Below the pieces are notes generated by a model, which ran no database searches, had not been told where the DNA came from, and was given only the letters and a program-made list of their open reading frames with translations. From contig CAJFUF010000029.1 of the NCBI GenBank assembly GCA_904420175.1, positions 62,001-126,000 of the forward strand: 64,000 bases of DNA, given 5' to 3'. The position numbers and the translations under genes are program-made. The stretch is from Candidatus Schneewindia gallinarum (GTDB lineage Bacteria > Bacillota > Clostridia > Oscillospirales > Ruminococcaceae). Shown piece by piece: positions 25,633-40,083 of the stretch; position 1 is the first letter of the stretch, and every line of letters begins with the position of its first letter.

Positions 25633-26208
25633 CTAAGAACGGGGCTGTATCTGGCGGGCGCTGCGTCTGTCGATGTCCAGCACAATCCGGCCCACAAACA
25701 AAAGCATCAGCACCTCCAGTGGAAGAATCAGCAGGTTTTTGCCGATTCGCAGCGGCAGGGTGGCCAGCTGGAAGCTCTGCCCGTAGTACAGGTACAGCCA
25801 CACGCTGTTCAGGCCGATGTTTAACACGGTGTTAATCACCAGTTTGGCGGCAAGAGCCCGGTACCAGCGCAGCGGTTTTTTGTACAGCGCCATGCCCCAG
25901 ATGAGGCCCGCCAGCACCGCCGTCAGGGTGAAGCCAGGGAAATAGGCCCCGCCGCCGTTGTTGACAAGCCAGCCCAACAGGTCGGTGGCGGCGCCTGCCG
26001 TCATCGCCACCACCGGGCCGAACAGCATCCCCACCATGGCGCTGGTCAGGAAGCCAAAGCCAATCCGCAGCTGCGGCGTCAGCTGGATGCGGATGTTCAG
26101 CAGATCCAGTGTGATATTGATGGCAATAAGTACGGCGGTAACAGCCAGTGCCCGGGGGGAGCGGAATTCCTCTGCGGAGCAGACAAACTGCTCCTTCAAA
26201 TTTTTCAT
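25633..26208 (-). CDS. folT: Folate ECF transporter S component FolT
   Basis: The 191-residue membrane protein has about five or six helices and starts at the ATG at 26208 behind GGAGGTATTTTT. The segment LTPQLRIGFGFLTSAMVGMLFGPVVAMTAGAATDLLGWL is typical of substrate-binding S components. Folate specificity is supported mainly by the THF riboswitch in its leader. It should bind folate outside and pair with a shared EcfAAT module encoded elsewhere. The 52% larger open frame upstream runs through the riboswitch and is not used. Confidence 0.9.
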   Translation of the reverse strand: MKNLKEQFVCSAEEFRSPRALAVTAVLIAINITLDLLNIRIQLTPQLRIGFGFLTSAMVGMLFGPVVAMTAGAATDLLGWLVNNGGGAYFPGFTLTAVLAGLIWGMALYKKPLRWYRALAAKLVINTVLNIGLNSVWLYLYYGQSFQLATLPLRIGKNLLILPLEVLMLLFVGRIVLDIDRRSARQIQPRS

Positions 26209-26214
26209 AAAAAT

Positions 26215-26250
26215 ACCTCCTTCTGTGCCGGATGCCGCACAAAAGGAGGT
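26215..26250 (-). promoter_or_regulatory. RBS-sequestering hairpin of folT
   Basis: On the minus strand ACCTCCTT (26250-26243) pairs with AAGGAGGT (26222-26215), extended by TGTGC/GCACA. The right arm is the folT ribosome binding site, so this fold would block translation and is the likely output switch of the upstream riboswitch. Confidence 0.82.
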
Positions 26251-26318
26251 GAAATTTTGAGAACGTGCCCCGGTGTATGCAGGGGCGCGCCTCTGCCTGC
26301 ACACACTTCGTTTATGCA

Positions 26319-26417
26319 GCAGCGGGATGCAAAATCCACACCGCGAAACAGGGTTTCTTCGTCCGGTCCGCAACTCCCCGTCGGACCGACACTTGACGCG
26401 TGGATTTTTACTCTGCA
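26319..26417 (-). ncRNA. Tetrahydrofolate (THF) riboswitch
   Basis: Read on the minus strand the leader contains, in order, GCAGAGTA, CCACGCGTCAAGTGT, GACGGGGAGTTG, GGACGAAG, TTCGCGGTGTGG and TGCATCCCGCTGC. These match the conserved blocks of the THF riboswitch, with P1 formed by GCAG/CTGC and P2 by AATCCAC/GTGGATT. It lies between a promoter and folT, where this class is expected. A second hairpin (GTGTGTGCAGG with CCTGCATACAC) follows before the RBS-sequestering stem. Confidence 0.92.
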
Positions 26418-26423
26418 CTGTCT

Positions 26424-29220: not shown

Positions 29221-30390
29221 TTATTCGCTGTACAGCAGGCTGTCAATTCCGGCCTGCTTTAAAATGTTTTCCAGCTCCGTGTCGCCGGAATCCAACTGGA
29301 CCATCAGCTTTCCGGTAAAACCCTGCGTGCTGGCGTTTTCCTGCAGCAGCTGCACCAGCCGGGTCAGGCCCGCCGCACGGTCCGTGGACAGGTCGATCAC
29401 TTCGCCGTTTACGGCATAGCGGGTTTGCAGCGCCTCCTGTGTCATGGTAAGCAGGATGTAGTCCGCGTCCAGCTTAAAGGGGGCAGAGCCATACTGGTCC
29501 GCCTGCTGGCCAAGACCCGCCAGCACCGGAAGAGAGACAATCAGCTGGCAGTCCTTCCCCTGCAGGGCGCTTTTCAACGTCTGGGAGCAGGCATACAGCG
29601 CGTCGGACTTATCCCCGCCGGTGTTGCCCGGATAGTAGGCGTAGTGCAGGCCCACCCCGTCAGGGAACTGCAGGTGATCCACCAGCACCGCCTCAAAGCC
29701 CAGATCCGCCAGCTCCCCCACGAGGGAGGCGATATAGCTGTTTGCCCGCTGGCTGTAGGGGTTGAGCCACGGCTTGCCGCCCTGGTTGGCATAGTTGTCC
29801 AGCCAGGTGGTCTCGGTGGCCACACCGCCGCTTTGATACTTGACACAGGCGTCGGTCATTTTTCTTGCCCCCTGCGGGTCGAGGAACGCACTCAGCCCTG
29901 CAATGGGCATGACGCCGCCCGCGCTGAGCGTTTCTGCGGCCCCCGACAGGCTGACGGCGCCCTCCGCCACGGCTTCCGCCGCCTGCGTCTCCTGCGAGGC
30001 GGTGGCGTAAAGAACCATGCCGTCCTCCCCTTTTACGGTGAACAGCGCAGCGGTCCGCCCCTGTCCCGCCAGGGTGGAGGCCAGCCCGGCCGGGTCGGAC
30101 GCAAGCGCGCTAAGGCTGCCTGTGCCGATGCTGGTAAGGGAGCCCGTCTGCTGCTGCGGCTCCGAAGAGGAACTGCTGTCCGACACCGACTGGCTGCCCG
30201 AGGAAGTTTCCGACGGCGCAGGTGCAAAATTGCCGCTGAAAAAGTCGATGACCACCGGCGCGATGCTGTAGCCTGCAAAGGCCACCAGCAGGCAGATCAC
30301 CGCCACACATACCCATTTGATAATGCTGGCGCGCCGGGGACTGCGGCTGTAAATTTTCTGGTTCCGTTTGATTTTGTACTTTTTCGCCAA
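29221..30390 (-). CDS. Membrane-anchored glycoside-hydrolase-like protein (DUF4015 type)
   Basis: The 389-residue protein has a basic N-terminus, one membrane helix (about 25-47), a Ser/Gln-rich linker and a large extracytoplasmic domain. The stretch WLNPYSQRANSYIASLVGELADLGFEAVLVDHLQFPDG, followed by repeated strand-helix units, resembles the putative GH family DUF4015 with a TIM-barrel fold. An Asp in VLVDHLQFP may be catalytic. The start is TTG at 30390 behind GGAGAAATACCC, 18 bp after rnfA. The substrate is unknown. It is the last gene of the rpe-rnfDEA operon. Confidence 0.7.
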   Translation of the reverse strand: MAKKYKIKRNQKIYSRSPRRASIIKWVCVAVICLLVAFAGYSIAPVVIDFFSGNFAPAPSETSSGSQSVSDSSSSSEPQQQTGSLTSIGTGSLSALASDPAGLASTLAGQGRTAALFTVKGEDGMVLYATASQETQAAEAVAEGAVSLSGAAETLSAGGVMPIAGLSAFLDPQGARKMTDACVKYQSGGVATETTWLDNYANQGGKPWLNPYSQRANSYIASLVGELADLGFEAVLVDHLQFPDGVGLHYAYYPGNTGGDKSDALYACSQTLKSALQGKDCQLIVSLPVLAGLGQQADQYGSAPFKLDADYILLTMTQEALQTRYAVNGEVIDLSTDRAAGLTRLVQLLQENASTQGFTGKLMVQLDSGDTELENILKQAGIDSLLYSE

Positions 30391-30408
30391 GGGTATTTCT
30401 CCTTTCCG

Positions 30409-31002
30409 CTAGAACAGGATGGAGCTGCCGATAAAGCCGTAAATGGCAAGGCTGATGATGCCGATGTAGATCATTTCGCTGGGCAGGCCCCGGAAGGACT
30501 CCGGGATGTCCAGCTTTTTCAGTTGTTTTTGGCCGTAATACATGATAATAACCGCCAGCAGGAAGCCCAGCGCCGTGCCAAGGCCGAGGCCCAGTGCAGA
30601 GACGGCGGACAGGTTCTCCCTGGTGCCGATGTAGATGCTGCCCAGCACCGTGCAGTTGAACATGGCCGGGCTTAACAGCGGCCGGTAGGTGTTGTAGCTG
30701 CTTTTGAAAAAGGAGCCCCATACGACGCAGGTCAGCGCATAGACAACCAGCATCACGCCCACAAAGGCGAGGGGTTTGCCAAAGGAGGGGATGGGGAACC
30801 ACTGGTTCAGCGCCGTCAGCGCCCAGGCAAGCAGAGAGGAAACGGTGGTCATCCCGGTCAGAATGCCGCAGAACGGCAGGATGGTGGCGGGATGCTCAAT
30901 TAAGCGGATAAGCCGCCCGATTCCCAGCGCCCTTGCAAACAGGGTGTTTTCAAACAGCAGCACCAGCAGGAAGGTGTTTGTGAATTCAAGTAAAAGGGTC
31001 AT
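30409..31002 (-). CDS. RnfA/NqrE-like membrane protein, divergent
   Basis: The 197-residue protein has six membrane helices and aligns with RnfA along its whole length, including SPAMFNCTVLG and the C-terminal FRGLPSEMIYIGIISLAIYGF. In Rnf and Nqr, RnfA and RnfE each give two cysteines to an iron-sulfur centre within the membrane. Here the first position (LGLCPF in RsxA) reads LGIGRL, so Cys is replaced by Gly29; the second, Cys117, is kept. The start overlaps the rnfE stop by 4 bp. Rnf ancestry is clear, but normal Rnf electron transfer is doubtful. Confidence 0.85.
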   Translation of the reverse strand: MTLLLEFTNTFLLVLLFENTLFARALGIGRLIRLIEHPATILPFCGILTGMTTVSSLLAWALTALNQWFPIPSFGKPLAFVGVMLVVYALTCVVWGSFFKSSYNTYRPLLSPAMFNCTVLGSIYIGTRENLSAVSALGLGLGTALGFLLAVIIMYYGQKQLKKLDIPESFRGLPSEMIYIGIISLAIYGFIGSSILF

Positions 31003-31811
31003 TGGTTATTCACCGGCCTTTCCTGCCCTGCGGAGGGCTCTGCCTGCAGGGGTGCTGTATCTGTCTGTTCTTCCACGGCACCCTCCGGGGCGACGGACGT
31101 CTCCTCCGCCGCGTCCGGCTGTTCCATATCAAGGCTGTCGTCCACCCATTTCTCCGTATAAATCTGCTCATGCCGGTCAAGCAGCTCGTTTTCGCGGATG
31201 ACGGCGGCAGCTTTCTTTGCCGCCGCGCCAAGCATCCCGATAATGATAAAGCCCATATACGGGTAGGCGGCGGACGGGACGGTCAACAGCGTGGGCGCAG
31301 GCAGGCCGAAAATGGTTCCGGCGCCAAGCCACTCCCGCACGATGCCAACCAGCAGGGTGCACAGAAAGAAACCGAGAATATTCTGGACAATGTGAAGGAA
31401 GCCCTTACGGTAGCCCCGCTCTGCCAGGGCATGGGGCACCTTCATCACCACAATGGAACTGACGCACAGCAGCGGCAGATAAATGCCAAGGGACACGCTT
31501 TGCAGCGGCAGGAAGGTATCCACCACATAGCCCACCGGGATGAACGCCGCGGCGGACACAAAAGCGGCCAGCCCCTTTTGCACCGGGACGCGGAACAGCA
31601 TCCCACCCATGGCGCACATGCCGCTGAGAAACAGCATAAGGAATGCAGCGGCCAGCCCCAAAATCAGGCCGTTTGCCGCAGTGGTGGCGCCCACCACCAC
31701 CGGGGTGATGGACAGGCCGCCGATGAACACCGGATTTTCGCTGAACAGTTCCAGCGTCCACTCCTTCAACGCATGCAGCGCCTTGCCGGGTCTGGAGGCC
31801 CTGCTACTCAT
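30999..31811 (-). CDS. RnfE/NqrD-like membrane protein, divergent, with acidic C-terminal tail
   Basis: The 270-residue protein shares the RnfE helical layout (SENPVFIGGLSITPVVV, AFIPVGYVVDTFLPLQSVSLGIYLPLL, IVREWLGAGTIFG). The two iron-ligand cysteines are missing: GLCPLL of RsxE corresponds to GLSITPVV (Ser34), and VTNCIVVG to VSSIVVM (Ser119). A Cys at 116 is three residues off. About 60 C-terminal residues form a cytoplasmic Glu/Gln/Pro-rich tail not found in RsxE. The ATG at 31811 overlaps the rnfD end by 8 bp, leaving no room for rnfG. Confidence 0.83.
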   Translation of the reverse strand: MSSRASRPGKALHALKEWTLELFSENPVFIGGLSITPVVVGATTAANGLILGLAAAFLMLFLSGMCAMGGMLFRVPVQKGLAAFVSAAAFIPVGYVVDTFLPLQSVSLGIYLPLLCVSSIVVMKVPHALAERGYRKGFLHIVQNILGFFLCTLLVGIVREWLGAGTIFGLPAPTLLTVPSAAYPYMGFIIIGMLGAAAKKAAAVIRENELLDRHEQIYTEKWVDDSLDMEQPDAAEETSVAPEGAVEEQTDTAPLQAEPSAGQERPVNNQ

Positions 31812-32760
31812 GGGCGGCCACCTCCCTTCTGTTTGCAAGCTGCCGCCGGACGTGCCGGACCAGTGCCTCCAGGCAGGGCAGCAGCGCCTGGCAAATCAGC
31901 AGCGCAAAGCAGAACCCCTCCTCAAACGCACCGTTGTAGCGGAACAGCATCGCCGCAGGACCCAGCAGCAGCGCATACAGGTACCGCACACTGCGGGCTT
32001 TTGGCAGCACAACCGGGTCACACAGCAGAAACAGCCCGCCGAACAGGATATAGCCGGAACTCATCTCATACACAACGGACAGGAACGGGCCCGCCGCGCT
32101 GCGTGGGAACAGCAGGGCAAACAGTGCGGCCGAAGCAAAAAAGATGCACACGGTGGGCACATCCACACAGCGCCGCACAGCAAGGTACAGGAACACGGTC
32201 AGCAGGACCACCACACAGGTGGTGCCCAATGCCCCCGGATTGTTGCCGATGAACATATCAAATATCCCAAAGGAGGGAATGCCCCCCAATTTTAGGGCCC
32301 CTGCCGCGCTGGTGGCGGGGGGGAAGCTGTCCGCCCCCACAGCCAGCTGCTGAAGCGGCGTGGTGTAGGCGAAAACCTGAGAAGGAAAGCTCAGCGTTAA
32401 AAACGCCATGCCCGCCGCGGCAGGCGTAAAGGCGTAGCTGTAGGCGCCGCCGAAGGGGTATTTCGCCACCAGCAGCGCAAAGGCCACCCCCATGGGGCCC
32501 AGCCAGTAGGGCGCCGTGGGCGGCAGCATCATGGTGATGATAAGCGCGGTGGCAAGGCCGGACGGCTCCCACCGGCCGCGGTGCTTCATGAAGAACTGCA
32601 GGACAATCAGATCCAGCAGGGCTGCCACCGCGCAGTTGATAAGCGCAAGGTACAGCACCCGGATCCCGTAGAAATAGAATCCGACGATCATCAGCGGGAT
32701 GCAGCACAGCATCACGTCGTACCGATACCGGTCGCACTGCTTACGCAGGCCTCTGTTCAT
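31804..32760 (-). CDS. RnfD/NqrB-like membrane protein
   Basis: The 318-residue protein has about nine helices with typical RnfD segments: EPSGLATALIITMMLPPTAPYW, KYPFGGAYSYAFTPAAAGMAF and FDMFIGNNPGALGTT. In RnfD a Thr in a GAT motif carries covalent FMN. The matching segment here is PPATSAAGAL, so Thr150 is kept although the preceding residues differ. The ATG at 32760 is behind GGAGGGTCC and gives the family N-terminus. It follows rpe by 37 bp and leads straight into rnfE. Confidence 0.85.
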   Translation of the reverse strand: MNRGLRKQCDRYRYDVMLCCIPLMIVGFYFYGIRVLYLALINCAVAALLDLIVLQFFMKHRGRWEPSGLATALIITMMLPPTAPYWLGPMGVAFALLVAKYPFGGAYSYAFTPAAAGMAFLTLSFPSQVFAYTTPLQQLAVGADSFPPATSAAGALKLGGIPSFGIFDMFIGNNPGALGTTCVVVLLTVFLYLAVRRCVDVPTVCIFFASAALFALLFPRSAAGPFLSVVYEMSSGYILFGGLFLLCDPVVLPKARSVRYLYALLLGPAAMLFRYNGAFEEGFCFALLICQALLPCLEALVRHVRRQLANRREVAAHE

Positions 32761-32797
32761 ATCGGACCCTCCTTTTTCCAACAACATTGGTACGGGC

Positions 32798-33460
32798 TTA
32801 CAGCGCCGCGTCCGCCGCCGCGCGCAGCCCGGCCACCGCTTTCACGCGGTCGTCTGCCAGGAACAGGGAGGAGCCGGCCACCAGCAGATTGGCGCCCGCC
32901 TTCGCCACCAGCGGGGCGTTGCTTTCGCCGATGCCGCCGTCCACCTCAATATACAGCGTTTTGCCGATCCGGTCTGCCTCTGCCTTGATTTTTTCAATTT
33001 TGGGCAGCATGTCCGCCATGAACTTCTGCCCGCCGAAACCGGGCTCCACCGTCATAATCAGCACCAGGTCCAGCTGCGGCAGGAAGGGGAACACCGCCTC
33101 TGCCGGGGTGGCGGGCTTGATGCTGAGCCCTGCCTTCATCCCCTTCTCTTTGATGGCGGCAATGGTGGCTGCCGTGTCGCTGTCCGCCTCCAGATGGAAG
33201 GTGAGGATGTCGCTGCCTGCGGCGGCGAAGTCATCCACATACCGCAGCGGATCGCTGATCATCAGGTGCACGTCAAACACCATGTCGTTCGCCTTGCGCA
33301 GGCATTTGATAACCGGCGCGCCCAACGAGATGTTGGGCACAAAATGGCCGTCCATTACGTCGATGTGCAGCATATCCGCCCCGGCCCGCTTCATGGTGTC
33401 GCACTCTTCAGCGAGGCGGGAAAAATCACAGGCAAGAATGGAGGGGGAAATTTCAGTCAT
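32798..33460 (-). CDS. rpe: Ribulose-phosphate 3-epimerase
   Basis: Interconverts ribulose 5-phosphate and xylulose 5-phosphate. The 220-residue TIM barrel shows ISPSILACDFSRLAEE, MLHIDVMDGHFVPNIS with the metal-binding His and Asp, VHLMISDP, MTVEPGFGGQKF and EVDGGI. It is the first gene of the operon with rnfD, rnfE and rnfA, an unexpected partner for a pentose-phosphate enzyme. In other Firmicutes rpe is often next to rsgA or prkC, which are not seen here. Confidence 0.95.
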   Translation of the reverse strand: MTEISPSILACDFSRLAEECDTMKRAGADMLHIDVMDGHFVPNISLGAPVIKCLRKANDMVFDVHLMISDPLRYVDDFAAAGSDILTFHLEADSDTAATIAAIKEKGMKAGLSIKPATPAEAVFPFLPQLDLVLIMTVEPGFGGQKFMADMLPKIEKIKAEADRIGKTLYIEVDGGIGESNAPLVAKAGANLLVAGSSLFLADDRVKAVAGLRAAADAAL

Positions 33461-36374: not shown

Positions 36375-36405
36375 TATATCATTCTAAGTCGTCATATGAT
36401 ATAAT
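36375..36405 (+). promoter_or_regulatory. MFS promoter with inverted repeat
   Basis: TATATCAT (36375-36382) and ATGATATA (36396-36403) are perfect 8-bp inverted arms. The right arm overlaps the likely -10 TATAAT (36400-36405). The -35 is weak, which suits a regulated promoter. Confidence 0.55.
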
Positions 36406-36454
36406 GAAGAGGATCCAGTCGCGTGCGGTCCTGCGACAGGGGAAAAGAAAGGTG

Positions 36455-37657
36455 ATGATCGGTTTGAGCCGGGCAGAGGGAAAAAACAAGCTGATGCTGT
36501 TCATGGCGGCGTATTTTACGATGCACATGTGCATCAGCTGCCAGTACAACTACATGTCCCTGTTTTTTGAAAGCCATGGGATGACGGATGTGCAGATTGG
36601 CATCCTGATGGGGGTGGGGCCGCTGGCCGCCACCATCGGCCAGTACACCTGGGCCAACGTGGCGGATAAAGCGAGCTCCATTAACAAGGTGCTGCTTTCT
36701 GTTATGTCGGTGGCGGCGCTGACGCTGGTGCCCTATTTTGTGCTGACGGGCTTCCCGGTATACCTGGTCACCATCATTGTCTACAACTTCTTTGTGTCCG
36801 CAGCCACCCCGTTGTATGACACCATGTGCCTGTACTACGCTGCGGAGAAGCACTACGCCTTTGGGCACATGCGCATGGTGGGCAGCCTCGGCTACCTGCT
36901 GTGCATGATTTCCTCGGGAATCTTGGTGGCTTACTATGTGGGCGTCATCTTCGTCATCCAGGCGGTCGCTTTCGCGCTGTTCCTGTTTTTCCTGTCCCGG
37001 CTGCCGAAAATAAAAATGCCAAGGCTGAAAAAGGCCGCCTTCAACCCCATGGTGATGTTGAGAAAGCCATCTGTGGCGGCTATTTCCGGCGTGCTGCTGG
37101 TGCTGCATTTCGGCTACGGGCTGAACACCGCGTTTTTTACTCCTTATTTTGTGACGGAACTGGGTGCGCCCAGCTACTTCATCAGCATCGGCGCGGTGTT
37201 GTCCATTGCCATTGAAGTGACCTACTTCACCTTCTTTGACCGGCTGGTACAGCGGGTTCCCTTTAAGGTCCTGTTTGCCATTGCGGCCAGCCTGTCAGCA
37301 GTGCGGTGGCTTATCTGCGGGGTGACGCAAAACATCTATGTGCTGATGGTGTCCTTTGCGTTTGAGGGGATTACCAGTGTGGGCCCCATCTATCTGTCCG
37401 TTTACTACTTTAAACGGGTCGCCCCGCCCGAGGGGAAGACCAGCGCGCAGACGCTGGTGCACATCATTACCTTCGGCATTGGGAAATGCCTGGGATCCTT
37501 TGTGGGCCCGCACCTGACGGCGGCCCTCGGCGGGAATTTGCAGACCACTTACGCGGTACTGTGCGCCAGCGTTGCGACAGCGGTGGTTATTTTCACCCTG
37601 CTTCCGGTAAAATTCCAGCAGCAGGACAACAGCACCGCCGGTGTGGTCATTGAATAA
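36455..37657 (+). CDS. MFS transporter, LacY-like (copy 1 of a tandem pair)
   Basis: A 400-residue major facilitator protein with twelve predicted helices. FESHGMTDVQIGILMGVGPL and the MFS motif-like GQYTWANVADKASS are seen in the first half, and FAIAASLSAVRWLICG in the second. It resembles the MFS_1-like/oligosaccharide:H+ symporter group; the substrate is unknown. The ATG at 36455 is preceded by AAAGG. The protein is very similar along its whole length to the next gene product, and both end FQQQDNSTAGVVIE. Confidence 0.85.
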   Translation: MIGLSRAEGKNKLMLFMAAYFTMHMCISCQYNYMSLFFESHGMTDVQIGILMGVGPLAATIGQYTWANVADKASSINKVLLSVMSVAALTLVPYFVLTGFPVYLVTIIVYNFFVSAATPLYDTMCLYYAAEKHYAFGHMRMVGSLGYLLCMISSGILVAYYVGVIFVIQAVAFALFLFFLSRLPKIKMPRLKKAAFNPMVMLRKPSVAAISGVLLVLHFGYGLNTAFFTPYFVTELGAPSYFISIGAVLSIAIEVTYFTFFDRLVQRVPFKVLFAIAASLSAVRWLICGVTQNIYVLMVSFAFEGITSVGPIYLSVYYFKRVAPPEGKTSAQTLVHIITFGIGKCLGSFVGPHLTAALGGNLQTTYAVLCASVATAVVIFTLLPVKFQQQDNSTAGVVIE

Positions 37658-37758: not shown

Positions 37759-38952
37759 TTGGTCCGGACGGAAACAAAAAGCAAACTGCACCTGTTTATG
37801 GCGGCGTATTTTACGATGCACATGTGTATCAGCTGCCAGTACGGCTATATGCCCCTGTTTTTTGAAAGCCATGGCATGGACAGCATGCAGATTGGCATCC
37901 TCATGGGGGTGGGGCCGCTGATATCCATTCTGGGCCAGTACACCTGGGCCAACATGGCGGACAAGTGCAGTTCCATCAACAAGGTGCTGCTGTGCGTTAT
38001 CTCCGTGGCGGCGCTGACCATTGTGCCCTACTTTGTTTTCACGGGCTTCCCGGTGTACCTTGCAACCATTATCCTCTACAATTTCTTTGTGTCCGCGGCC
38101 AACCCCCTGTACGACACCATGTGTCTGTACTACGCGTCGCAGAACCATTACGCCTTTGGGCACATGCGCATGCTGGGCAGCCTCGGCTACCTGCTGACGA
38201 TGATTGTATCGGGCATTCTGGTGGCATATTACGTGGGCGCCATCTTTGTCATTCAGGCGGTCGCTTTCGCGCTATTCCTGTTTTTCCTGTCCCGGCTGCC
38301 GAAAATAAAAATGCCCAAGTTAAAAAAAGCAGCCTTCAACCCCATGGTCATGCTGAAAAAGCCGTCGGTGGCGCTGATTGCGGCGGTGCTGTTGGTCCTG
38401 TACTTCGGCTACGGGCTGAACACCGCGTTCTTTTCCACCTACCTTGTGACGGAGTTGGGCGCGCCCAGCTATTTTATCAGCATCGGCGCGGTGCTGTCCA
38501 TCGCCATTGAGGTGGTCTACTTTACGTTTTTCGACCGGCTGGTGGAGCGGTTCCCCTTCAAGGCGCTGTTTGCCATCGCAGCCAGCCTGTCGGCCATACG
38601 GTGGCTTATCTGCTGCAGCACAAGGGACACGGGGGTGCTGATGCTGTCCTTCGCCTTTGAGGGGATCACCTCCGTGGGGCCCATTTACCTGTCCATCTAT
38701 TACTTTAAACGGGTGGCCCCGCCCGAGGGGAAAACCAGTGCGCAGTCCCTTGTGCACATCATTACCTCCGGCTGCGGGAAGTGCCTGGGCTCCCTCATCG
38801 GGCCGCATCTGACAGCGGCCCTCGGCGGGAATTTGCAGACCACCTATGCGGTGCTGTGCGTCAGCGTGACGGCGGCAGTGGTGCTGTTTATCCTGCTGCC
38901 GGTGAAGTTCCAGCAACAGGACAACAGCACCGCCGGCGTGGTGATTGAATAA
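37759..38952 (+). CDS. MFS transporter, LacY-like (copy 2 of a tandem pair)
   Basis: A 397-residue paralogue of the preceding transporter, well over 80% identical by eye. Blocks such as AFALFLFFLSRLPKIKMP and the last 14 residues are the same. Differences gather in the first loops and around the middle of helices (GYMP for NYMS, ISILG for AATIG, CSTRDTG for GVTQNIY). The start is TTG at 37759, 8 bases after AAAGGAG. A weak hairpin (37679-37702) lies between the copies and a strong terminator follows. Confidence 0.85.
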   Translation: MVRTETKSKLHLFMAAYFTMHMCISCQYGYMPLFFESHGMDSMQIGILMGVGPLISILGQYTWANMADKCSSINKVLLCVISVAALTIVPYFVFTGFPVYLATIILYNFFVSAANPLYDTMCLYYASQNHYAFGHMRMLGSLGYLLTMIVSGILVAYYVGAIFVIQAVAFALFLFFLSRLPKIKMPKLKKAAFNPMVMLKKPSVALIAAVLLVLYFGYGLNTAFFSTYLVTELGAPSYFISIGAVLSIAIEVVYFTFFDRLVERFPFKALFAIAASLSAIRWLICCSTRDTGVLMLSFAFEGITSVGPIYLSIYYFKRVAPPEGKTSAQSLVHIITSGCGKCLGSLIGPHLTAALGGNLQTTYAVLCVSVTAAVVLFILLPVKFQQQDNSTAGVVIE

Positions 38953-39028: not shown

Positions 39029-39757
39029 TTAAACCCGAAGCCCTTTTAAAAACGCAATGAACTGCCCGGCGGTTGTAAGGTCGTCCGGCACTTCAAAAAA
39101 CTGCTCCGGTTCGGCAATATCCTGCAGGTAGTGCGCATCCGAGTTTTGTACAATCACCTTGTCGCCCAGCTCCGGATTGGTCGTCAGCAGCTGGGGCAGG
39201 CGGCTTTTATCCCGCAGTTCCGCCATGGTGAAGCCGCAGCTGTCCGGAATGACGCCGAGGCTGACAAGGATGCTGAAGGAATCCCGGTCCACATGCGCCG
39301 GGAAGCAGAAGCCGCCGTACTGTGCCACCACGGCAGGCAGCTCATCCACCGACAGCGCCGCGCCGGTCAGCAGCAGAAGCGGCTCAGTCCCAATCTCCTG
39401 GTCCTGACTGTCGAAAATGCTCTGCCTGCCGAAGGCGCGCTCATCGTTGCAGATGGGCGGCAGTTTTTCGTGCAGCATCCGGGAGAAGCGCAGCGCCGCG
39501 TCCACGTCCGGGAACAGGCACACCACATGGATTTCCTCCTCGGTGCACACCTCGCACCCGGGGATGAACAGCAGGTGGGTGCCCTCGGCGGCGGCCTGGA
39601 CGGCGGGGCAGTTCTCCGCCGTGTTGTGGTCGCACACTGCAATGACATCCAGCCCGTTTAAACGCGCCATGCCCACAATGTTGCAGGGGGTCATGTCCAT
39701 GTCGCCGCAGGGGGACAGGCAGGAGTGGATGTGCAGGTCGTAATACAGCCGCTTCAT
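39029..39757 (-). CDS. PHP-domain metal-dependent phosphoesterase
   Basis: The 242-residue protein starts YDLHIHSCLSPCGDMDMTPCNIVGMA and has VCDHNTAENC, FPAHVDRDSF and QNSDAHYLQDI, the metal-binding motifs of PHP phosphoesterases. In many Clostridia this gene ends the DRTGG/sensory-hydrogenase cluster, and here it overlaps the upstream DRTGG gene by 4 bp. The physiological substrate is unknown. Confidence 0.9.
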   Translation of the reverse strand: MKRLYYDLHIHSCLSPCGDMDMTPCNIVGMARLNGLDVIAVCDHNTAENCPAVQAAAEGTHLLFIPGCEVCTEEEIHVVCLFPDVDAALRFSRMLHEKLPPICNDERAFGRQSIFDSQDQEIGTEPLLLLTGAALSVDELPAVVAQYGGFCFPAHVDRDSFSILVSLGVIPDSCGFTMAELRDKSRLPQLLTTNPELGDKVIVQNSDAHYLQDIAEPEQFFEVPDDLTTAGQFIAFLKGLRV

Positions 39758-40083
39758 GACAGCGCCTTGTCAATCCGTTTTGCGGCCTCAAAAATGGGCA
39801 GCGGGGTGCGTAAAACCGGGATGTCCTGCTCCCGGGCTTTGACCACTGCGTCCGCATCCACGTCCAGCCCCTCCGCCACAATGATGCAGGCGGTGTCGGC
39901 AAGGGCGCTGACGGCGACGGCGTTGACCCCGCCCATAATGGTGACCCATGCGCAGTCCGCAGGGGCCCGGCCCATCACCTGGCTGAGCATGTCGCAGCAG
40001 TACACCCCCGTCACCTCCCGCTGGTCGTCGCCCTTTACCACGACGGTGCCCTCAATCAGCGCGGGAATCTCTTTTACAGTCAT
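39754..40083 (-). CDS. DRTGG-domain protein (second of two)
   Basis: A 109-residue soluble protein with EGTVVVKGDDQREVTGVYCCDMLSQVM and the hydrophobic alternating strands of a DRTGG domain, a nucleotide-binding-like fold also found in phosphotransacetylase N-termini. No catalytic residues are recognised. It lies 16 bp after the sensory hydrogenase gene and overlaps the PHP gene. A role in signalling with the hydrogenase-like protein is an inference from context. Confidence 0.8.
   Translation of the reverse strand: MTVKEIPALIEGTVVVKGDDQREVTGVYCCDMLSQVMGRAPADCAWVTIMGGVNAVAVSALADTACIIVAEGLDVDADAVVKAREQDIPVLRTPLPIFEAAKRIDKALS

Follow-up and report, generated by a model that had tools for sequence, protein, structure and literature searches.

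Loss of the [2Fe-2S] ligands and the outer FMN pocket in a putative rpe-linked paralogue of the Rnf D-E-A membrane core

Introduction

The Rnf complex (RnfABCDGE) is a Na+/H+-translocating ferredoxin:NAD+ oxidoreductase. In published RnfD proteins, FMN is bound covalently to Thr153 in the vicinity of Arg130 and Glu185, and a riboflavin lies near Asn124 and Asp248 (PMC9588780, PMC11889175). The A. woodii complex becomes inactive when the cysteines of its iron-sulfur cluster are mutated (PMC11889175). Crossing of Na+ has been proposed to occur via RnfA/E in A. woodii (PMC11889175) and via RnfD in C. tetanomorphum (PMC9588780), and the A/E pair has been likened to alternating-access carriers for its broken helices (PMC12174285). 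The Na+-NQR is descended from a duplicate of the rnf operon in which rnfB was lost (PMC4014512). NQR/RNF-like systems have also been described in flavinylation clusters, where an NqrF-type NAD domain is fused to RnfD/NqrB; they occur mainly in Actinobacteria and CPR, and electron flow in them is one-way (Meheust et al., 2021; PMC8238504).

Here we analyse a trio of genes encoding RnfD-, RnfE- and RnfA-like membrane proteins in a 64,000-nucleotide stretch of DNA, referred to below as the window. The trio is homologous to the D, E and A subunits of Rnf and shares their fold and the gene order C-D-(G)-E-A. Unlike Rnf, however, it lacks RnfB and RnfG (or RnfC), the [2Fe-2S] ligands of A and E and the outer FMN pocket of RnfD, and it belongs to a separate clade. 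NqrB, NqrD and NqrE are likewise homologous to the trio, but the Na+-NQR gained NqrF and retained all redox sites, whereas the trio lost sites and gained no reductase. The systems of Meheust et al. resemble it in being partial Nqr/Rnf sets with an RnfD/NqrB-type membrane protein; in contrast to them, the trio has E and A but no NAD domain and no linked FMN_bind or ApbE gene. A literature search, with subscription journals outside its reach, found no paper on an Rnf core without redox ligands.

Results

Organization of the operon

The trio forms part of a compact operon that begins with rpe and ends with a gene for a DUF4015 protein and a terminator-like hairpin (Table 1). A gap of 10 bp separates rpe from the longest RnfD-like frame, the RnfE- and RnfA-like genes overlap by 4 bp, and 18 bp lie between the RnfA-like and DUF4015 genes. 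The likely start of the RnfD-like protein is the ATG at 32760, which is preceded by GGAGG, and that of the RnfE-like protein is the ATG at 31811, giving an overlap of 8 bp with the end of rnfD. Shine-Dalgarno-like sequences (GGAGG, GGGAGG or AAAGGAG) are present 5' of the RnfD-like, RnfE-like and DUF4015 genes. All three proteins of the trio passed the Pfam cut-offs but scored far under the curated cut-offs of the NCBIfam rnfA, rnfE and rnfD models. By Pfam, the RnfD-like protein stops after the membrane domain and has no NAD domain. The RnfE-like protein ends in an acidic C-terminal tail. No NqrF or NqrA gene is present in the operon.

Table 1. Coordinates of the operon and of other features of the window
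Feature	Position	Strand	Evidence or remark
Operon, rpe to DUF4015 gene	29221..33460	-	
D-E-A trio	30409..32787	-	
rpe, ribulose-phosphate 3-epimerase, first operon gene	32798..33460	-	TIGR01163 above cut-off
RnfD-like membrane protein	31804..32787	-	PF03116 E 1.2e-55; solved RnfD homologues
RnfE-like membrane protein	30999..31838	-	PF02508 E 1.6e-20; A. woodii RnfE 9eri_E E 3.5e-16
RnfA-like membrane protein	30409..31002	-	PF02508 E 4.9e-16; RnfA 7zc6_A E 1e-9
DUF4015 (PF13200) membrane-anchored extracytoplasmic TIM-barrel protein, TTG start	29221..30390	-	Pfam, AlphaFold model
Terminator-like hairpin and T-run directly 3' of DUF4015 stop codon	29181..29203	-	pattern scan; consensus match only
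THF riboswitch	26318..26417	-	RF01831, 91.7 bits
MFS-type transporter gene, first copy	36404..37657	+	
MFS-type transporter gene, second copy	37759..38952	+	
PHP-domain and DRTGG-domain genes	39029..40083	-	overlap of a few bases

A search for RNA elements, riboswitches or other, found none at the operon; the window contains just a THF riboswitch and one tRNA, both elsewhere. The riboswitch lies directly 5' of the gene for a folate-type ECF S component, and the longest frame in that region (25633-26418) wrongly spans it. The two MFS-type transporter genes in Table 1 are adjacent and very similar, and appear to have arisen by a recent tandem duplication.

Replacement of three [2Fe-2S] cysteines out of four

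The cysteine positions were located using phmmer against solved Rnf structures (and also Nqr chains) together with a family alignment. Residues were tallied after removal of sequences more than 90% identical, on 92 RnfA, 90 RnfE and 86 RnfD sequences of the divergent type and on 25-27 canonical sequences per subunit. One of the four [2Fe-2S] cysteines is left in the window. In the RnfA-like protein the first cysteine is replaced by Gly29 (30916-30918), and the second is retained as Cys117 (30652-30654). The first cysteine of the RnfE-like protein aligns with Thr45 if counted from the TTG start, or Thr36 from the ATG (31704-31706), and the second with Ser128 or Ser119, respectively (31455-31457). 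A preliminary description of this locus had named Gly29, Cys117 and Ser119, all of which the alignment bears out; it had also named Ser34 of the RnfE-like protein, which is two residues off.

The first cysteine of RnfA was found in none of the 92 divergent sequences (Ser in 72, Thr in 9), as against 25/25 canonical ones, and RnfE had lost the first cysteine (0/90, Ala in 70) as well as the second (0/90; Pro in 45, Ser in 34, Thr in 8), each of which was present in 26/26 canonical sequences. The second cysteine of RnfA was kept in 56/92. In canonical sequences each tallied feature was present in all or all but one. The recurrence of these losses across the family excludes chance. We considered whether the cysteines were kept at shifted positions, as Cys125 of the RnfE-like protein is three residues before Ser128, but no family-conserved cysteine was found near either RnfE site.

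The Gly, Pro and Asn residues specific to the fold of the broken helices are conserved in the alignment of the divergent family. At RnfE position 107, beside the former second cysteine (now mostly Pro), Glu or Asp is present in 45/68 of the members without RnfC (C-less members). A carboxylate would then lie midway across the membrane, consistent with an ion-coupled carrier. The window has no Glu or Asp at this position (Ser127) and shows Ser-Ser there. Of the residues in the Na+ route proposed for A. woodii, RnfA Gln85 and Glu88 are lost in the divergent proteins, and RnfE Arg67 and Glu115 are kept by most members, with Gln and Pro, respectively, in the window. The missing carboxylate and the partial retention of the route count against a role in transport. 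Near the C-terminus of RnfA, a Gly-His pair (His193) was observed in 78/92 divergent and in no canonical sequences; the window has Ser193.

Loss of the outer FMN pocket of RnfD and variation at the riboflavin site

In the RnfD-like protein, the position of the FMN-bearing Thr153 is occupied by Ser160 (32308-32310), and every one of the pocket residues Arg130, Glu185, Asn90, Gly237 and Ser284 is replaced, the first two by Met127 and Thr189. Across the family, the threonine is present in 3/86 sequences (Ser in 47, Gly in 30-32 depending on the alignment used), and Arg130 and Glu185 in 0/86 each. The preliminary description had assigned the FMN threonine to Thr150 (Thr159 from the upstream ATG), and this assignment was not upheld, as Thr159 aligns with the canonical Ala152. 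The adjacent Thr159 ends a D-x4-A-T string (DSFPPAT) that is found in the window protein only, among the 86 divergent sequences. Because the window sequence branches from deep within the clade and lacks the FMN pocket, the string more likely reflects chance than a kept flavinylation site. Electron movement through flavin only, the first of three roles that had been offered for the trio, is also unlikely, given that neither the window nor any of its 86 relatives has retained the rest of the pocket.

At the riboflavin site, Asn124 is replaced by Thr121 in the window and Asp248 is kept as Asp257. This site varies in the family: the position of Asp248 has Asp in 46 and Glu in 35 of 86 sequences (Asp or Glu in 79/84 in another tally), and the Asn is present in 19/19 members that carry RnfC versus 25/65 of the C-less ones (Fisher 5e-7, kinship ignored). 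At canonical position 194 of RnfD, a cysteine lies within a membrane helix in 73/86 divergent sequences, versus Gly in canonical RnfD and Val198 in the window.

A canonical Rnf is encoded elsewhere in the genome

The source genome is a metagenome-assembled genome (MAG) of 1.77 Mb in 39 contigs, 86.65% complete. A second rnf cluster, the possibility of which had been raised in the preliminary description, was found on contig C23 as a complete canonical rnfCDGEAB with all cysteines present (L005). It holds the only RnfB, RnfC and RnfG of the genome, and this RnfG is the genome's single FMN_bind protein; the FMN_bind and ApbE genes, on contigs C23 and C3, are unlinked to the operon. No other RnfC-like, RnfB or RnfG partner was found in the genome, a 40% match on contig C8 being confined to a short Fe-S stretch. 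The earlier statements that no rnfG lies between the overlapping D, E and A genes, that rnfB and rnfC are not nearby, and that the trio is not an ordinary Rnf are upheld. With the cluster ligands, RnfB and RnfG absent, the published Rnf electron path cannot run in these proteins.

A fragmented and incomplete MAG could in principle conceal an ordinary Rnf whose missing genes were misassembled or lie elsewhere. However, about 90 loci, counted without redundancy, share the gene order, some of them from isolates or finished genomes (Anaerotruncus colihominis DSM 17241, L140), and the cysteines are lost in every divergent locus. We consider this explanation refuted, with next to no probability left to it.

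The operon recurs within one order

Across 84,980 species genomes, 80 loci were found, and the non-redundant rpe-D-E-A-type loci were, in our sampling, confined to the order of the window genome. They occur in Gemmiger, Faecalibacterium, Subdoligranulum, Anaerotruncus, Fournierella, Ruthenibacterium, Massiliimalia, Massilioclostridium, Merdimmobilis and other genera. A divergent RnfA (at least 135 bits) was detected in 67 of 149 related genomes, 64 of them from Ruminococcaceae, to which the window genome belongs, and a single one from each of three further families of the order. Among 341 class-wide genomes, the higher-scoring matches inspected outside the order were canonical, having all cysteines and linked RnfB/RnfG.

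In a set of 120 loci (some redundant, and with canonical controls included), 81 showed rpe-D-E-A, whether or not a DUF4015 gene was detected, and 25 showed rpe-C-D-E-A, the exceptions being mostly at contig ends. Where the flank was sufficient, rpe was the upstream neighbour of the trio in nearly every locus and DUF4015 adjoined rnfA in nearly all. No divergent locus had a linked RnfB or RnfG. The proposed association of the cysteine losses with rnfD, with DUF4015 (nearly always) and with the absence of rnfB and rnfG thus stands, but that with the absence of rnfC does not, as some members, for instance Merdimmobilis hominis, keep an RnfC-like protein. Two canonical-looking C-D-E-A-B loci (L181, L186) had no match to the RnfG profile between D and E, which may reflect a divergent RnfG or a real loss, and another canonical cluster (L194) had two consecutive RnfB-like frames.

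In an unrooted maximum-likelihood tree of 24 divergent and 26 canonical RnfD sequences, the branch separating the two types had support of 100/100. The rows carrying RnfC lie between the C-less and the canonical rows, and 13 C-less rows, including the window, form one side of a branch that is not strongly supported (85/86). This refines the earlier account, in that the absence of RnfC would be a later loss within the family. In two genomes of a sister family (L072, L188), a canonical rnfCDGEAB is located between rpe and DUF4015, with the same flanks as the stripped operon, and its RnfD branches first on the canonical side of the tree. Both [4Fe-4S] motifs (C..C..C...C) are present in 25/25 RnfC-like proteins, and the NADH/FMN loop (G-x-G-G..F-P-T) in 0/25.

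These proteins bear on the possibility that the operon encodes a reduced redox device, in which the inner riboflavin site of RnfD would still work as a redox sensor or gate for A/E. Where present, the RnfC-like [4Fe-4S] protein would feed it and, lacking the NADH/FMN loop, would itself draw on ferredoxin; species like that of the window would have lost even this input. The intact [4Fe-4S] motifs, the invariant riboflavin-site Asn of the members with RnfC and the prevalence of Asp or Glu at position 248 are in agreement with such a device. However, no transmembrane route is left, and the window has neither RnfC nor the riboflavin-site Asn. Moreover, the loss of RnfC maps to one clade, so the association between the Asn and RnfC rests on few events. 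We regard a residual redox function as rather unlikely.

The family is under purifying selection

Median dN/dS values from 19 independent close pairs were 0.13 for A, 0.18 for E, 0.12 for D and 0.12 for rpe, and 0.19 for DUF4015 (9 pairs). The values for A, E and D indicate that the family genes are maintained. The window copy itself sits at the end of a long branch (1.74) and lacks close relatives, and no same-genus genome was present among the relatives searched. This branch, the departures from the family at RnfA His193 and RnfE Arg67, and the successive losses of B and G and then C could be read as the decay of a remnant of a duplicated rnf operon. Such decay is contradicted by the intact, overlapping frames with their ribosome sites, by the occurrence of the divergent form in nearly half of the related genomes and by the low dN/dS. 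The values from pairs of relatives rule out a pseudogene for the family; decay is refuted at this level, and we consider it highly improbable altogether.

Predicted folds and the DUF4015 partner

The AlphaFold model of the RnfA-like protein (pLDDT 83) matched RnfA/NqrE of solved complexes with Z scores of 14.2-14.6, and the next unrelated fold was the MgtE Mg2+ channel, with a Z score of 7.0. DSSP analysis of the model showed that the first inner helix is still broken (residues 25-28). Helix 100-127 is continuous, whereas the solved structures are broken there, which may be an error of the model or a real change.

The DUF4015 protein scored 52 bits against a Pfam cut-off of 27, and has a barrel joined to a single membrane anchor by a Ser/Pro-rich linker. 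The closest folds to its AlphaFold model (pLDDT 83) were Cwp19 (Z 21.0) and the C-terminal domain of PgaB (Z 20.1), which are glycoside-hydrolase-like barrels with 14-16% identity to it. A further difference is that only 21/63 of the operon-linked members keep the Asp of the D-x-x-x-F-P motif, which we take to be catalytic by analogy with other barrel hydrolases, while Lys120, Asp171, Trp208 and Pro211 are invariant. DUF4015 has also been reported in fusion with YkyA, a domain that is otherwise a partner of polysaccharide deacetylases (PMC12700454).

The preliminary description had also proposed a flavin-linked module with this extracytoplasmic protein. A functional link between the trio and DUF4015 is suggested by the conservation of the operon. 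The trio could also be a structural or regulatory paralogue, moving nothing, that anchors or positions the DUF4015 protein or, as a decoy, assembles with subunits of the canonical Rnf. The near-constant position of DUF4015 beside rnfA in well-flanked loci and the presence of a canonical Rnf in the genome agree with this, as does the loss of the motif Asp in two thirds of the members, by which the DUF4015 protein, too, may bind and not cut. On the other hand, selection constrains the membrane-buried residues as tightly as it does rpe, the broken helices have retained their fold-specific Gly, Pro and Asn, and several genomes with a divergent RnfA, most of them incomplete, show no clear canonical RnfB. 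Although the data that agree with transport could also be explained by a structural or scaffold role, we consider such a paralogue improbable.

Discussion

Taken together, the alignments and gene content show the loss of RnfB, RnfG and, in the clade of the window, RnfC, as well as of the [2Fe-2S] ligands and the outer FMN pocket of RnfD, and show that the folds and the operon are preserved under purifying selection. The observation first made on this locus is confirmed with the corrections given above, and its interpretation is partly supported. The reading that we prefer, for and against which we see about equal grounds, is that D-E-A is a paralogous Rnf core that lost transmembrane electron transfer in steps and was probably kept as an ion or solute transporter. 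Of the three roles offered earlier, that the trio 'transports something' is the most plausible, and it is a putative one.

On this transporter reading, the rpe-linked position would be the older place of rnf. From the copy there, B and G would have disappeared together with the Fe-S ligands, the outer FMN and the NADH site, with C still kept, and RnfC and the riboflavin site would have been lost later, in the C-less clade, with energy conservation covered by the second, canonical rnf elsewhere. Small or polar residues may now occupy the place of the former [2Fe-2S] cluster, and the A/E pair, carrier-like in its broken inner helices, could together with D move an ion or small solute down or with a gradient. 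D-E-A would act in a complex or pathway that includes the cell-wall-facing DUF4015 protein. More tentatively, and with our doubts slightly the heavier, the Rnf-derived core may have been remade into a redox-independent transporter, in which an ion or solute is conducted without electron flow.

If this last proposal is true, the transport path of Rnf/Nqr would be separable from the redox chain. A natural, maintained D-E-A without the redox chain offers a ready-made test of which part of Rnf transports, and what it transports. After Nqr, this would be a second instance in which duplication of an rnf operon led to a new function. The stripped core is carried by common gut genera, namely Gemmiger, Faecalibacterium, Anaerotruncus and Fournierella, and automated annotation may class it as a subunit of Rnf electron transport, so that the occurrence of energy-conserving Rnf in these bacteria would be overstated.
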